Shown here: one piece after another, positions 21,992 through 28,600 of the stretch
Layout of the letters: the number at the start of each line of letters is the position of its first letter
Position numbering within the stretch: the first letter of the stretch is position 1
Origin: Chthoniobacterales bacterium
GTDB taxonomy: Bacteria; Verrucomicrobiota; Verrucomicrobiia; Chthoniobacterales; JACTMZ01
Direction of reading: 5' to 3'
Assembly (NCBI GenBank): GCA_021463515.1
Contig: JAJTYZ010000091.1
Span: forward strand, 1-32,074
Length of the DNA stretch: 32,074 nt
The notes under the pieces: generated by a model
The model's input: the letters and a program-made list of their open reading frames with translations, nothing else
The model's database searches: none
What the model was told of the DNA's origin: nothing
Made by a program: the position numbers and the translations under genes

Positions 21992-22345
21992 TTATTCCGA
22001 AGCGGAAACCTTGGATTGCCAAGGCCAGCGCCCGTTGATTTCCAGCTCTAGGGAAAAGCTCAGGAAGGTACGAATGACCACAATGGCTGCGAGAACGGCC
22101 ATATTTTGCAAAGTCGGAGCAACGGCGACCGTGCGAATAATATCGCCAGCCACCAAAAGTTCCAATCCCAGCAAAATGGCGCGTCCTAGCCGACGGCGAT
22201 AAACCGTATAACGATCGAGTCCGGAACTCGGTGCCTGCACCAAGGACTCAATCGTCGCCACGAGAATTCCCACAACAATCACCGCAACACCCGCAGCGTC
22301 AACCGCCGTACCGACATGGTCCATCCATTCGCTAAAGTTCGTCAT
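21992..22345 (-). CDS. DUF1622 family membrane protein
   Basis: This small membrane protein is about 117 residues from ATG 22345 (MTNFSEWMDHVGTAVDAAG); a TTG at 22387 would add 14 poor residues. It has a hydrophobic N-terminal helix (VAVIVVGILVATIESLV) and two further segments. The conserved core RRRLGRAILLGLELLVAGDI is followed by IRTVAVAPTLQNMAVLAAIV and IRTFLSFSLELEINGRWPW, as I recall for the DUF1622 family. The function of the family is unknown. Ten bases separate it from the downstream rhomboid-like gene. Confidence 0.85.
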   Translation of the reverse strand: MTNFSEWMDHVGTAVDAAGVAVIVVGILVATIESLVQAPSSGLDRYTVYRRRLGRAILLGLELLVAGDIIRTVAVAPTLQNMAVLAAIVVIRTFLSFSLELEINGRWPWQSKVSASE

Positions 22346-22578
22346 ATTTACGTAGGCCAGATTGCACGACCAAGAAGACTTCGGCAAGACAAGCTTTTCC
22401 TAACAGAGAGAATAAATATGCCCAAGTTATTCACAATTCCGCAAATCCATGTTCCAAAAAGAATAAGCTATAACTCGATACAATATATGTCATGTATAAT
22501 TAAAGGGGTGAATTTCAGAGATGCAATGTTTCCAAGGCACGTTGAAAGCGTGAAGCTTTATTCCATTTCACCAAGCGT

Positions 22579-22914
22579 TCACCTCTCAAAGAAAAGCCAA
22601 CTTTGAATTGCCCGGTATTCGTTGTCATGGCCACATGTGAAATAAAAGTCGGAGGAACACTCCTCACCTCCGCTAAACTCTTTATTATCCTTCTCAGATG
22701 GTTTGGCAGCGATATCAGGACACTTACTAAAAATTCCTCGATCATAGGCAAACAAATCCAGACCCGTATCTTCAGCCAGACAGATATATTTGAACTCATC
22801 CAGCCAAAGGCGTGGGACAATCCATTCGGGATATCCATGCGCAATTTATGAGCCCACTCGGTGCTCTCCCTTGATCAGAAGATGCGCTATGAGGTTTGTC
22901 TCAACAACGATCAT
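22579..22914 (-). pseudogene. vapC-like PIN-domain toxin remnant
   Basis: The frame starts MIVVETNLIAHLLIKGEH, close to the N-terminus of VapC PIN toxins, although the usual first catalytic aspartate (VVDTN) is glutamate here. After 22 codons an in-frame TAA (22846-22848) interrupts it. The same frame resumes with YPEWIVPRLWLDEFKYI, the next PIN block, then jumps directly to LAEDTGLDLFAYDRGIFSKC, the C-terminal block, skipping about 60 residues of the domain. A premature stop plus internal deletion makes a functional RNase very unlikely. A GGAGG Shine-Dalgarno sequence remains upstream, and the start overlaps a short antitoxin-like frame as ATGA. Confidence 0.65.
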
Positions 22915-22949
22915 GAGCACCCTTCATTGATAGCTTCCTCCAAAATCAT
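22911..22949 (-). pseudogene. Possible vapB antitoxin 3' remnant
   Basis: A 12-residue frame (MILEEAINEGCS) ends in TGA overlapping the ATG of the toxin remnant, the normal antitoxin-toxin junction. An in-frame TGA lies just upstream (22953-22955), so only the last helix of an antitoxin could survive. The call depends on the neighbouring toxin remnant. Confidence 0.35.
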
Positions 22950-23188: not shown

Positions 23189-23557
23189 TTATTTTTCATT
23201 TAAGACACACCCCCGTGGAAAAGGCTGCTGAGAGGAATGGCACGAAGTTAATAAATGATTAGGATGGCTTCTTCCCAATTTTGTTTTTCTGCGTTTGAGG
23301 GTACCACACCGGCCTCGGGTGTCGCCTTCGGTGCTCTCGCCGGAGGTATTGTCGTGAGACCACTCAACGATGTGCCGTGCGAGGGCGCACGGCACGACAC
23401 CCGAGGCGGGTGTGGTACCCTTCTCAGAAACGAGAACATCGAAATCTTTCCAACCACACCTTATCTTAGGGTCATTCACTGCTGAGAGCTTGTTTTGGGC
23501 GAGTTCGAAAATGCCACTTTGGTTGTTTTTGAGGCGAAAAATATAATCGGCTCCCAT
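23189..23557 (-). pseudogene. DDE transposase fragment (ISAs1/IS4-like) interrupted by a palindromic element
   Basis: The first 40 residues (GADYIFRLKNNQSGIFELAQ, ending near DFDVLVSEK) resemble the segment after the second catalytic aspartate of ISAs1-type transposases (GADYVLALKxNQ). Both the upstream catalytic part and the C-terminal part are missing. From about residue 46 the frame runs into the 122-bp inverted-repeat element and afterwards no longer reads like transposase. No terminal inverted repeats of an insertion sequence were found. The family assignment is from memory and tentative. Confidence 0.45.
23299..23420. repeat. 122-bp REPIN/MITE-like palindromic element
   Basis: Outer inverted repeats of 26 bp at 23299-23324 and 23395-23420 match at 25 of 26 positions, beginning GGGTACCACACC and its complement. 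Inside are two smaller hairpins: CCTTCGG/CCGGAGG (23325-23346) and a perfect 9-bp stem GTGCCGTGC/GCACGGCAC (about 23372-23395). The paired inverted units, each with its own small hairpin, are the architecture of a REPIN or small MITE. It lies inside the transposase remnant. No clear target-site duplication was seen. Confidence 0.75.
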
Positions 23558-23608: not shown

Positions 23609-23636
23609 TTGAAATTCCGAAATCGCAATATACAAT
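23609..23636 (+). promoter_or_regulatory. Strong sigma70-like promoter for the exonuclease-RecQ-UvrD gene
   Basis: TTGAAA (23609-23614), 16 bases, TACAAT (23631-23636): five of six matches to each consensus box. The predicted transcript would begin near 23643, leaving a leader of about 120 bases before ATG 23762. The leader contains a small CAACAA/TTGTTG hairpin and an 11-codon upstream frame. Confidence 0.55.
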
Positions 23637-23729: not shown

Positions 23730-23765
23730 ATGGAAAACTATCCCTCCCCTTTCCCAACGCTATGA
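23730..23765 (+). other. Possible 11-codon leader frame overlapping the helicase start codon
   Basis: ATG 23730 opens a frame encoding MENYPSPFPTL. Its TGA (23763-23765) overlaps the ATG of the downstream gene (23762-23764) in the coupling arrangement ATGA. In a genome where ribosome-binding sites are rare, such a leader could deliver ribosomes to the main start. It may also be chance. Confidence 0.3.
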
Positions 23766-26700
23766 CTAAGATCGTTTATTTTGACACAGAGGTATCTTCT
23801 GAGAGAGGTAAAGTTTGTGACATCGGAGCCATTGATGAATTAGGGAGTACCTTTCATTCTCCCTTAAAAGCGGAATTTCAGAACTTCCTGCATGACGCCG
23901 CATATGTGTGCGGACACAACATCATCCAGCATGATCTTAAGTTCGTAGGCGACTGCGTTCCACCTTCCGCCATGATCGTAGATACACTATTCCTCTCACC
24001 CTTACTCTTCCCTCATAAACCTTACCACGCATTAGTGAAGGACGACAAACTGTTCTCGGATGAACTAAACAACCCGCTAAATGACGCAAAAAAAGTAAAA
24101 AGCCTCTTAGATGACGAGCGAGCGGCTTGGCAATTATTATCCTCGGAAATGCGCTCGATTTTTACTGCCTTATTGACAAACCAATCGGAGTTCAGTGGTT
24201 TTTTTCATCTCATGAATTCCTCCCACTCTACCGTTCTCAATATACCAATAACAGAAACTATTGCGAAAATATTTCATAACTCCATTTGCGAATACTCCCC
24301 TCTCATGGCAGCGATCCAACGAGCCCCGATCGAGCTTGCTTATGCCCTTGCACTCATTCACGGGAATGACCTTACTTCTCTCCTACCACCCTGGGTCGTC
24401 CTACAATACCCACGCATTGAACGCCTCATCCGCAGCCTGCGAGCAAAACCATGCCTACACGGCTGTCCATACTGCCGAAATAAACTCGATCCGAAACGCG
24501 GTCTAAAAAAATATTTTGGCTTCGATGATTTTCGCCTTTACGCAGGTGAACCTCTCCAAGAAAACGCTGCCCGTGCGGCTCTCGAAGGCAAGTCCTCTCT
24601 CGTCATTTTTCCAACAGGCGGTGGCAAATCCATCACCTTCCAGATTCCAGCGCTGATGTCCGGAGAGTCCGAAAAAGGGCTAACGGTTATTATTTCCCCG
24701 CTGCAATCATTAATGAAAGACCAAGTGGATAATCTCGAGGCACGCGGTATTACGCGAGCCGTTGCCATCAGCGGATTACAAGATCCCATCGAACGGGCAG
24801 AAGCCATTAAACGCGTTGCCGATGGCTCTGCCTGCATACTCTACATTGCGCCGGAATCACTCCGGTCCTCAACGACGCTGAGATTGCTCCAACAAAGAAA
24901 CGTCGTTCGCTTTGTCATAGATGAGGCGCATTGCTTTTCCTCGTGGGGGCAAGACTTCCGCCCTGATTACCTTTACATTGGTGATTTTATTAAAGAGCTC
25001 TGCCGGCAAAAGTTTGGCGATACCAATCAAGGGGGTATCCCTATTTCCTGTTTTACCGCCACGGCAAAGCAACGCGTCATTGAAGACATTTGTGCTTACT
25101 TTAAAGAAAAACTCGGCACCCAACTTGAGATTTACACGGCTCTCTCACGCCGCGAAAATCTGCATTACAAGGTGATCGAATGCACAGAAGAATCTGAAAA
25201 ATACAATAGAGTTCGTATTCTCCTCGAACTCTATAAATGTCCGACCATCATCTATGTTTCACGCACGCGGCGTGCTCAAGAAATCGCCGAAAAGTTAGTC
25301 CAAGATGGGTTCTCCGCTCTGGCTTTTCACGGTAAAATGGAGCGCGAGAGAAAGACTCATAATCAAAACAGTTTTCTATCCGGTAATACACAAATCATGG
25401 TGGCAACCACGGCTTTTGGCATGGGCGTGGACAAGAAAGATATTGGCCTCATCATTCATTACGACATCTCCGATTCGATCGAAAACTATGTTCAAGAAGC
25501 TGGCCGTGCCGGTCGTGACGAAAATATTCAAGCCCAATGCTACATATTGTTCAATGAGGGCGATCTCGACAAACACTTCCTTCTCCTCAACCAAACAAAG
25601 CTCAACTTCTCAGAGATACAACAAATTTGGAAGGCCGTGAAAGAGTGTACAAAAGCTCGCTTATCCGTTCAGCAATCTGCACTCGAAATTGCACGCACTG
25701 CCGGGTGGAACGATACCGCAGGAACGGAAATGGAGACGCGAGTTATTACTGCAATCACCGCCCTCGAACAATCAAACTATCTGAAACGCGGGCAAAATTC
25801 ACCGCGCATCTATGCCAGTAGTATTCGTTGCAAGTCCATGACAGAAGCTTCACAAAGAATTACCGCCTCACCTCGCTTTTTGAACGAAGCTCAGCGCAAC
25901 CATGCCAGCCGCATCATGGCCAATCTATTTAGTGCACGTAGTCGGAAAAGCAACGAACCCAACGAAGCAGAAAGTCGGGTAGATTATTTATCGGAAAACC
26001 TCGGAATTGTTCGGGAAGATGTCATACGCGTCGTGCAAATATTGCGCGAGGAAAAAATCCTCGACGATCAACAAGACCTCTCCGCCCATTTCACCAACGA
26101 CGCAAATCAAAATCGTTCACTCCGCATTCTTAACGAATACCTCGAAATTGAGCTCTTCCTCCAAAAATTTATCACTGAAGAAAAATCGGTGATCCATATA
26201 AAGCGCCTAAACGAAGAAGCAGAAAAGGCAGGTTGCCGTGCGTGCAACACAAGGATCATTCATACATTGCTTAATTATTGGGAAATTAAGCACTTGGCAC
26301 GACGGCAGTGGGATAGGCTTAATAATGCCCATGTCACTGCCGTCTTGCCCCCGGCGGCATTTGTCGGAGCCATCAATAAGCGCGGCGAAATCGCACGAGA
26401 AATCGTGAAATATCTTCACCAAAAGATTGTCACTGAAGAAAAGCCCGAACCTGATCAGAAAACGGTATCCATCACTTTTTCCGTGATCGAACTCGCCCGA
26501 AGCATTCACGCCAATGCAGGCCTCTTTCAAATTCCGATGACTTCTGTGGAAATTGAGGACGCACTCTTCTACCTATCCCGAATCGGAGCCATGAAAATCG
26601 AAGGCGGATTCATGGTGGTTTACAACCGGCTCACGATTGAACGTAAGGAACCCGACTTGCGTGTTCGCTACAAAAAGGACGATTATAAAAAACTCGATGA

Positions 26701-28600
26701 TTTCTATAAAAATCGCGTACAACAGATTCATATCGTCGGAGAATACGCCAATAAGATGTTGGAAGGCACACCGCAGGCTATCCAATTTGTAGAGGATTAC
26801 TTTCGCCTCAATTCCCCCTCATTCATGGAACGATATTTCACGAAAGCTCGCCAACTTGAAATGCGACTTAATATCACTCCAAAAAAGTATCGCGAACTCT
26901 TCGACTCACTCTCCGATACCCAGAGACGCGTGATAGACGACCGAGAATCACGTGTCATTGTCGTAACCGCCGGCCCGGGAAGCGGAAAAACTAAACTGCT
27001 GGTGCACAAACTTGCGGCCCTTCTTTTAATGGAAGATGTTAAGCACGAGCAGCTACTAATGCTCACCTTTTCCCGTGCTGCGGCGACTGAGTTTAAAGCC
27101 CGGTTGGTCTCTCTCGTCGGAAATGCCGCAAATTTCGTCGAGATTAAAACCTTTTATTCATGGTGTTTCGACCTCCTCGGGCGCGTTGGCTCTCTGGAAA
27201 ATACAGATAATATCATAGGCGAGACCATTCAGAAAATACGAGCGGGGGAAGTTGAGTCCAGTCGCATTTCGAAAGCTGTATTGGTAATTGATGAAGCCCA
27301 AGATATGTCGGGGTGCGAATACGAACTCGTACGTTTACTCATGGAGTACAATGAGGCAATGCGCGTCATCGCCGTCGGTGATGATGATCAAAATATCTAT
27401 TCTTTTCGCGGCTCCGACTCGAAATATTTCGCCGCGTTACTCCAAGCCAAAGGAGCAACAGGCTATGAACTTGTGACAAACTATCGAAGTGCTCCCAACC
27501 TCGTCGCATTTTCAAACCAATTTCTTTCGACGATTAAGAATCGGATGAAACACCAACCTATCGTCGCGCAGGCTTTACAAAATGGAACACTCACCCTCCA
27601 ATATCACACTTCTCCGCACCTCGCCCAACCCCTCCTGCACGAAATTCGTAACAGCGGCCTTACAGGCTCTACCGCCGTACTCACCTTCGATAATGTCACC
27701 GCCACAACAATCACCGGGCTGCTTAACTACACAGGGTTTCCAGCTCGCCTCATCCAAAGCAACGATAGCTTTTCATTAGCCGATATTGACGAAGTAAAAT
27801 TTTTCTCCCGACAAATTGCGGATTTTGTATCCATACCCAAAGAGGAATGGGAAGCCGCGAAACGACGCCTCCACCAGGACTATCCTTCTTCCAGTCGTGG
27901 TCTTGAAGTATGTACGGCCATTATAAAGGACTTTGAATCGGCCAACACCCATTCGCGATACCGAACCGACTTTGAAGTCTTTGTACGCGAGTCTCGCTTA
28001 GAAGACTTCTTCTCTATCGCCTCACGCGAAGTGATTACGGTCTCAACCATGCATAAGTCGAAAGGCCGTGAATTTGACAACGTATTTTTACTCCTCCCTC
28101 GAACACCCACGACTGACGAAGAACGCCGCTTGATCTATGTTGCGATGTCCCGTGCCCGATCGCGCCTCGTTATCCTGACCACCTCGCGGGCCTTTAACTT
28201 CATTCAAACCGAAGATTTTCTTCGAAAAACAGACCGTCACAACTGGGGCGAGCCATCCTCACTCACCCTCTTCCTTACACACCGAGATATTTGGCTTAGC
28301 TCTTTTAAAAAAGTACAACCTGCGGTAAACAAACTCTACTCCGGAGACGACCTGAAAGTAGTAACCACAGAAAAGGCGGACCAATACATTTGTACGAACA
28401 AAAACGGCCAAGTTGTCCTGCATTTCTCCAAAAAGTTTCAAGCAGAACTAAGGAATCATAAGGCTCGCGATTACATCCCAACCTCCGCTCGCATCAATTT
28501 TATTCTCTGGTGGAAAGAAGCGGACAACCCCGACAAAACAACCCCAAACAATCCCTGCAAAATCATCCTCCCTGAACTCCACCTCCAAAAGTCATCCTGA
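23762..28600 (+). CDS. Exonuclease-RecQ-UvrD fusion helicase-nuclease
   Basis: A 1612-residue fusion of three DNA enzymes. Residues 1 to about 125 form a DnaQ/Werner-type 3'-5' exonuclease: VYFDTE (D8, E10), GHNIIQHD (D58), and a likely last acid in NPLNDAKK (D108). A linker carries a C-x3-C-x2-C motif (C231, C235, C238). A RecQ-type SF2 helicase spans about 262-600: Walker A FPTGGGKS near 286, IDEAHCFSSWGQDFRPDY near 387, AFGMGVDK near 551, EAGRAGRDE near 580. The usual RecQ zinc module is not seen; a long helical, winged-helix-like region (600-1050) follows. A UvrD-type SF1A helicase completes it: GPGSGKTK near 1071, DEAQD near 1177, GDDDQNIYSFRG near 1206, NYRS near 1240, STMHKSKGREFDNVF near 1427, YVAMSRAR near 1459. 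ATG 23762 (MTKIVYFDTE) is preferred over upstream TTG 23609, which coincides with the promoter. Function: repair or defence (inference). Confidence 0.9.
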   Translation: MTKIVYFDTEVSSERGKVCDIGAIDELGSTFHSPLKAEFQNFLHDAAYVCGHNIIQHDLKFVGDCVPPSAMIVDTLFLSPLLFPHKPYHALVKDDKLFSDELNNPLNDAKKVKSLLDDERAAWQLLSSEMRSIFTALLTNQSEFSGFFHLMNSSHSTVLNIPITETIAKIFHNSICEYSPLMAAIQRAPIELAYALALIHGNDLTSLLPPWVVLQYPRIERLIRSLRAKPCLHGCPYCRNKLDPKRGLKKYFGFDDFRLYAGEPLQENAARAALEGKSSLVIFPTGGGKSITFQIPALMSGESEKGLTVIISPLQSLMKDQVDNLEARGITRAVAISGLQDPIERAEAIKRVADGSACILYIAPESLRSSTTLRLLQQRNVVRFVIDEAHCFSSWGQDFRPDYLYIGDFIKELCRQKFGDTNQGGIPISCFTATAKQRVIEDICAYFKEKLGTQLEIYTALSRRENLHYKVIECTEESEKYNRVRILLELYKCPTIIYVSRTRRAQEIAEKLVQDGFSALAFHGKMERERKTHNQNSFLSGNTQIMVATTAFGMGVDKKDIGLIIHYDISDSIENYVQEAGRAGRDENIQAQCYILFNEGDLDKHFLLLNQTKLNFSEIQQIWKAVKECTKARLSVQQSALEIARTAGWNDTAGTEMETRVITAITALEQSNYLKRGQNSPRIYASSIRCKSMTEASQRITASPRFLNEAQRNHASRIMANLFSARSRKSNEPNEAESRVDYLSENLGIVREDVIRVVQILREEKILDDQQDLSAHFTNDANQNRSLRILNEYLEIELFLQKFITEEKSVIHIKRLNEEAEKAGCRACNTRIIHTLLNYWEIKHLARRQWDRLNNAHVTAVLPPAAFVGAINKRGEIAREIVKYLHQKIVTEEKPEPDQKTVSITFSVIELARSIHANAGLFQIPMTSVEIEDALFYLSRIGAMKIEGGFMVVYNRLTIERKEPDLRVRYKKDDYKKLDDFYKNRVQQIHIVGEYANKMLEGTPQAIQFVEDYFRLNSPSFMERYFTKARQLEMRLNITPKKYRELFDSLSDTQRRVIDDRESRVIVVTAGPGSGKTKLLVHKLAALLLMEDVKHEQLLMLTFSRAAATEFKARLVSLVGNAANFVEIKTFYSWCFDLLGRVGSLENTDNIIGETIQKIRAGEVESSRISKAVLVIDEAQDMSGCEYELVRLLMEYNEAMRVIAVGDDDQNIYSFRGSDSKYFAALLQAKGATGYELVTNYRSAPNLVAFSNQFLSTIKNRMKHQPIVAQALQNGTLTLQYHTSPHLAQPLLHEIRNSGLTGSTAVLTFDNVTATTITGLLNYTGFPARLIQSNDSFSLADIDEVKFFSRQIADFVSIPKEEWEAAKRRLHQDYPSSSRGLEVCTAIIKDFESANTHSRYRTDFEVFVRESRLEDFFSIASREVITVSTMHKSKGREFDNVFLLLPRTPTTDEERRLIYVAMSRARSRLVILTTSRAFNFIQTEDFLRKTDRHNWGEPSSLTLFLTHRDIWLSSFKKVQPAVNKLYSGDDLKVVTTEKADQYICTNKNGQVVLHFSKKFQAELRNHKARDYIPTSARINFILWWKEADNPDKTTPNNPCKIILPELHLQKSS

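Follow-up and report, generated by a model that had tools for sequence, protein, structure and literature searches.

A horizontally mobile bacterial fusion of a predicted DEDD exonuclease with RecQ and UvrD helicases as a single-gene candidate for defence against invading DNA

Why should one bacterial protein carry a nuclease together with two helicases of different superfamilies, and does such a protein serve in DNA repair or in defence? The question is raised by a gene of a Chthoniobacterales bacterium that lies in a window of 32,074 nucleotides (the whole stretch of contig JAJTYZ010000091.1 that was analysed). The first-pass annotation had read it as a fusion of an exonuclease, a RecQ helicase and a UvrD helicase with all key motifs intact, and had suspected an acquired defence or repair module. 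Translation gave one stop-free frame coding for a single protein of 1612 residues (Table 1); the frame extends upstream to a TTG at 23609, and the conserved N-terminus of the relatives starts at the ATG at 23762. The reading as a three-enzyme fusion held, since the exonuclease fold and the RecQ and UvrD domains were all found in this single chain, and the key motifs of both helicase superfamilies and of the nuclease were near-invariant across 85 full-length relatives. Based on the results presented below, the protein is best regarded as a self-sufficient, horizontally mobile single-gene helicase-nuclease, most likely acting in defence against phage or other invading DNA, a reading to which a probability of roughly 0.55 is given.

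Table 1. Layout of the fusion gene and its predicted domains (positions in the window)
Feature	Position	Strand	Basis
Whole gene, DEDD exonuclease - RecQ - winged helices - UvrD	23762..28600	+	Open frame; same architecture in relatives
Predicted divergent DEDD 3'-5' exonuclease domain, residues 1-~230	23762..24451	+	D8, E10, D58, D108; Asn103; H89
Three-cysteine cluster C231, C235, C238	24452..24475	+	Between exonuclease and RecQ; each Cys kept in 83-84 of 85 relatives
RecQ-type SF2 core, residues 245-620	24494..25621	+	GGGKS 286-290, DEAH 387-390, TAT 432-434, QEAGRAGR 578-585
Tandem winged-helix region, residues 621-1040	25622..26881	+	AlphaFold2 and Foldseek; replaces RecQ Zn/RQC/HRDC domains
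UvrD/Rep/PcrA-type SF1 helicase, residues 1044-1475	26891..28186	+	GPGSGKT 1071-1077, DEAQD 1177-1181, GDDDQNIY 1206-1213
C-terminal tail, residues 1476-1612, no domain assigned	28187..28597	+	Family-wide in alignment

The RecQ core and the UvrD_C domain were both recovered, far above cut-offs, in the kind of domain search that had been proposed earlier. The Pfam matches were DEAD (residues 264-442) and Helicase_C (489-585) in the first motor, and UvrD-helicase PF00580 (from 1051) and UvrD_C PF13361 (1349-1475) in the second. The protein belongs to the RecQ family by TIGR00614 (283.2 bits against a curated cut-off of 219.8), while the model of canonical bacterial RecQ, TIGR01389, scored 305 bits where 640 are required and its match stopped at profile position 348 of 591. 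Both UvrD domains and the SF1 motifs, among them YRS, KGREF and YVAMSRAR, place the second motor in the UvrD/Rep/PcrA group of SF1A. The RecQ and UvrD families are 3'-5' motors, and the same polarity would be expected for both parts of the fusion. Between the motors, residues 620-1040 were modelled by AlphaFold2 as a chain of winged helices (pLDDT 84.6) and not as the zinc, RQC-plus-HRDC set of RecQ; RPC62 and PadR, both winged-helix proteins, were among the Foldseek matches of this region. In the 85 full-length relatives, which come from several phyla, the lysine of each Walker A motif, the boxes DEAH and DExQD and the arginines conserved in the helicase motifs examined were invariant or nearly so.

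The exonuclease region was more divergent, and exonuclease profiles, on which its assignment had been made to depend in the first-pass annotation, gave a divided answer. No Pfam model scored this region of the window protein in the profile search, but a profile built from the relatives gave weak matches (E 0.003 to 0.03) to DnaQ-like exonucleases, PolC among them, and these matches became weaker with fewer rows. Structure prediction had been suggested for about residues 1-260 and 600-1050; the latter gave the winged helices described above, and the AlphaFold2 model of the N-terminal domain showed a DEDD fold with a mean pLDDT of 92 and a pTM of 0.88 (54 relatives; the alignments for structure prediction were taken without plasmid rows). 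Foldseek searches with this model returned proofreading domains of family-B polymerases, Pol II, DinG, NrnC and other DEDD enzymes, with probabilities up to 1.00 but E-values of only 1e-3 to 1e-1, and the viral structure library gave the same picture. Because these E-values are modest, the assignment relies on the predicted fold, the order of the motifs and the invariant acidic residues taken together, and by this model the N-terminal domain is a predicted member of the DEDD exonuclease superfamily (RNase-H-like fold, four acidic residues).

Three of these acidic residues (D8, E10 and D58) were invariant or nearly so, and D108 was present in 84 of the 85 relatives. Position 103, which by its spacing of five residues before the last Asp corresponds to the His of the DEDDh type, was Asn in 81 of the 85 aligned proteins, Ser in three, Lys in one and His in none. 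Membership in the DEDDh subfamily (DnaQ, TREX) was rejected accordingly, with the position of the expected catalytic His assigned by spacing; H89, further upstream, is invariant across the family alignment. The nuclease could be weakened or altered by this substitution, a point that counts against a defensive role. The three cysteines that follow the domain are probably metal-binding.

At least 580 encoded relatives were found in one genome collection by a genome-contig scan with N-terminal alignment, and 80 loci out of these matches were read. Complete relatives were mostly 1577-1640 residues long and had the same architecture; a distant, longer branch (about 1540-1830 residues) occurred on plasmids of Pseudomonadota and Cyanobacteriota, on viral-labelled contigs and in some genomes of the phylum of the window. 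In RefSeq the members are labelled "RecQ family ATP-dependent DNA helicase", with the exonuclease and UvrD parts unnamed and no function given. By their sequences, RefSeq proteins of about 1540-1760 residues, such as those of Bacteroides finegoldii (WP_022275194.1) and Aliarcobacter cibarius (WP_151029446.1), which are 47% and 33-34% identical, are assigned to the same family with the same full-length architecture. The sequences were already known and the architecture is common, being fixed in hundreds of species. In line with the earlier remark that large RecQ/UvrD fusions occur in other bacteria, the fusion is not rare. No description of this fusion was found in the literature, as searched in open-access papers of PMC.

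Such a protein could be an accessory DNA-repair or recombination enzyme for stalled forks or 3' ends, of occasional advantage under DNA damage, that is, a bacterial Werner analogue in work but not in descent. Both helicase families are classical motors of repair, and the DEDD fold is common to proofreading domains and DinG, but the distribution of the gene makes this explanation, a main rival of defence, the less likely of the two. In the order of the window the fusion was present in one of 213 genomes, the window's own, and was absent from the other 212, all further matches being to RecQ cores; it was found in 16 of 388 genomes of the phylum and in 11 of 200 genomes of Flavobacterium. Ten of the Flavobacterium copies were intact and one (L233:9623-10427) was degraded, with no more than residues 1-271 left, in broken frames. 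Among the ten, one pair shared most flanking genes, a second pair two and a third pair one, so that most copies lie at different sites. Moreover, a separate PcrA/UvrD was encoded in 39 of 40 carriers, which speaks against the repair explanation and rules out a housekeeping stand-in for PcrA.

Transfer of the gene across families also argues against a repair enzyme. Among 29 genomes compared, the fusion was 84-88% identical in genome pairs whose PcrA was only 49-55% identical, and the two identities were weakly correlated (r = 0.26 over 406 pairs). These comparisons are strong evidence for horizontal transfer, with the caution that the fusion and PcrA may evolve at different rates. In a quick tree, families were mixed within Bacteroidota and the window protein joined a protein of Lentisphaerae, although long branches make its placement unsure. 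The gene is accessory, patchy and horizontally mobile, and the earlier idea of an acquired module is supported by its patchy presence, transfer, mostly unrelated sites and absence of a fixed partner gene.

The genes around the fusion likewise revealed no repair operon among 81 loci. No recurrent neighbour and no conserved operon partner were found at these loci, where only 9 of 67 upstream and 9 of 69 downstream neighbours were same-strand genes no more than 60 bp away. The gene is solitary, one ORF of nearly fixed length whose neighbours do not recur. Whether homologues are enriched in defence islands had been put forward as a test of function, and the survey gave a mixed result. PADLOC families matched at E<=1e-15 numbered 85 for 140 neighbours at 36 loci and 18 for 140 pcrA neighbours in carrier genomes; what was counted is families, among which models are redundant, rather than proteins or loci, so that the true excess is smaller, and the controls are pcrA loci and not random loci. 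The matching neighbours included McrBC and HNH restriction genes and restriction endonucleases for PT-DNA. Most neighbours named by Pfam, on the other hand, were ordinary genes, and many neighbours are metabolic or housekeeping genes, which weighs against defence and in favour of repair.

Several loci had a more specific defence context. Immediately upstream of the fusion, a conjugative plasmid of Scytonema carries drmA-drmB-drmC of DISARM and a protein that matches PADLOC HEC-05 (L245:3243-11206). Near the fusion there are type I restriction genes together with HNH on an Allochromatium plasmid, type I-D CRISPR genes on a Thiothrix plasmid, a WYL/CARF regulator in Pseudanabaena and toxin-antitoxin genes on other plasmids. 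These named contexts belong mostly to the longer distant branch on plasmids, which counts against a defensive role. Of the earlier alternative between a defence and a repair module, the defence half is thus favoured by defence-gene contexts and the PADLOC excess, with many ordinary metabolic neighbours on the other side.

Copies on plasmids next to parA, parB and rep genes could also point to a function in the replication, transfer or competition of plasmids or integrative elements, and three viral-labelled contigs carry the fusion near serine recombinases. This explanation is improbable, because at most loci neither an integrase nor a partition gene recurs (only 5 of 118 loci have serine recombinases), no neighbour is shared and many copies lie on large contigs of isolates. 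Tandem or single serine recombinases were seen near the fusion on Clostridia-like contigs (L043, L048, L049 and L129), and on L049 a PrimPol gene is also close by. Thirteen IMG/VR contigs encode the fusion; a phage-borne gene was rejected, as annotated phages gave only partial matches to the RecQ core, all of them below 80% query coverage.

In the window the gene lies between smc, rhomboid and DUF1622 genes on one side and cmk and rnr on the other, and its GC content is 3 points lower than that of the flanks. The DUF1622 membrane protein (21992-22387) stands beside a rhomboid/DER1-like protein. The toxin-antitoxin remnant and mobile debris described earlier could be traced in part: a PIN-domain (VapC-like) toxin-like fragment on the minus strand at about 22500-22930, starting MIVVETNLIAHLLIKGE, is interrupted by a stop as read by eye, and a long near-perfect palindrome at 23235-23480 (predicted RNA folding energy -109.5 kcal/mol) recurs about 20 times elsewhere in the host genome and is MITE- or REP-like. 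The claim of a separate promoter was not sustained, as seven consensus sites were counted against 6.5 expected by chance from shuffled sequence. No complete defence gene was found in the window's own flanks, a point against defence. Reconstruction of the empty site within the same genus was unsuccessful: of six genomes, two have cmk near rnr, and in none does smc adjoin them. Finally, although the genome is a draft (140 contigs, 66% complete) and the gene is flanked by conserved ones, a housekeeping gene, chance ORF or assembly chimera is hardly credible, because the fusion is absent from the 212 remaining genomes examined in the order and because the 85 full-length relatives, whose alignment rules out a chance ORF or chimera, have the domain order and near-invariant motifs in common.

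Defence is therefore preferred over repair because of the distribution, the transfer, the redundancy with PcrA and the context, even though no phage test of the fusion was found in the open-access literature, which counts against it. In the defensive reading, the winged helices and the Cys cluster could grip a forked, nicked or gapped DNA end, and RecQ and UvrD, as two putative 3'-5' motors, might then, one or both, unwind or track along the captured DNA. The DEDD domain would trim the exposed 3' strand, by which the replication intermediates of the invader would be destroyed or stalled. More tentatively, the family may be a widespread but so far unnamed immune system made of one protein, whose two helicase superfamilies and Asn-substituted DEDD exonuclease form one machine acting on the replication forks of invaders.

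The gene is carried by hundreds of bacterial species, and its RecQ label hides two of the three enzymes. Should its role be defence, a single gene would encode a compact immune machine in which an SF2 motor is unusually paired with an SF1 motor, and the nuclease would reveal whether DEDD enzymes can function with Asn as a substitute for the general base. Natural carriers include the culturable genera Flavobacterium, Bacteroides and Desulfosporosinus.

Among known defence systems, no PADLOC model describes the whole protein, the partial matches falling on generic helicase cores, which also counts against defence. The UvrD-type SF1 motor resembles the GajB models of Gabija, but in the fusion it is joined to RecQ and an exonuclease and a partner gene for the OLD-type nuclease GajA is missing; no gajA-like ORF lies beside the gene in the window. 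The best PADLOC scores for the RecQ core were those of DpdF and PsyrT, limited to residues 243-633, and neither a dpd cluster nor psyrA recurs as a neighbour among the 81 loci. The fusion is thus excluded from Gabija, Dpd and PsyrTA, as it lacks the partners or nucleases that define them.

Outside defence, the order of an N-terminal DEDD exonuclease followed by a RecQ helicase is that of WRN, as had been pointed out. This resemblance holds for the order but is loose otherwise, since the fusion has no RQC-plus-HRDC set, has Asn at the position of the DEDDh His, the fifth catalytic residue, and carries an additional UvrD motor; the two proteins were probably assembled independently. DinG with an N-terminal DEDD exonuclease, as in Staphylococcus and Bacillus, is likewise a bacterial fusion of a DEDD exonuclease with an SF2 helicase and was among the Foldseek matches, but its helicase is XPD-like and there is no UvrD motor. 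A precedent for defence by one protein is Hna, in which an SF2 helicase and a 3'-5' nuclease in one chain, encoded by a single gene, act against phages (PMC13381803). The fusion would act in a similar manner to Hna or Gabija but is not a member of Hna, which combines a single motor with a PD-(D/E)XK nuclease at the C-terminus, whereas here the C-terminal part is a second, SF1 motor of the UvrD type and the predicted nuclease is an N-terminal DEDD domain.
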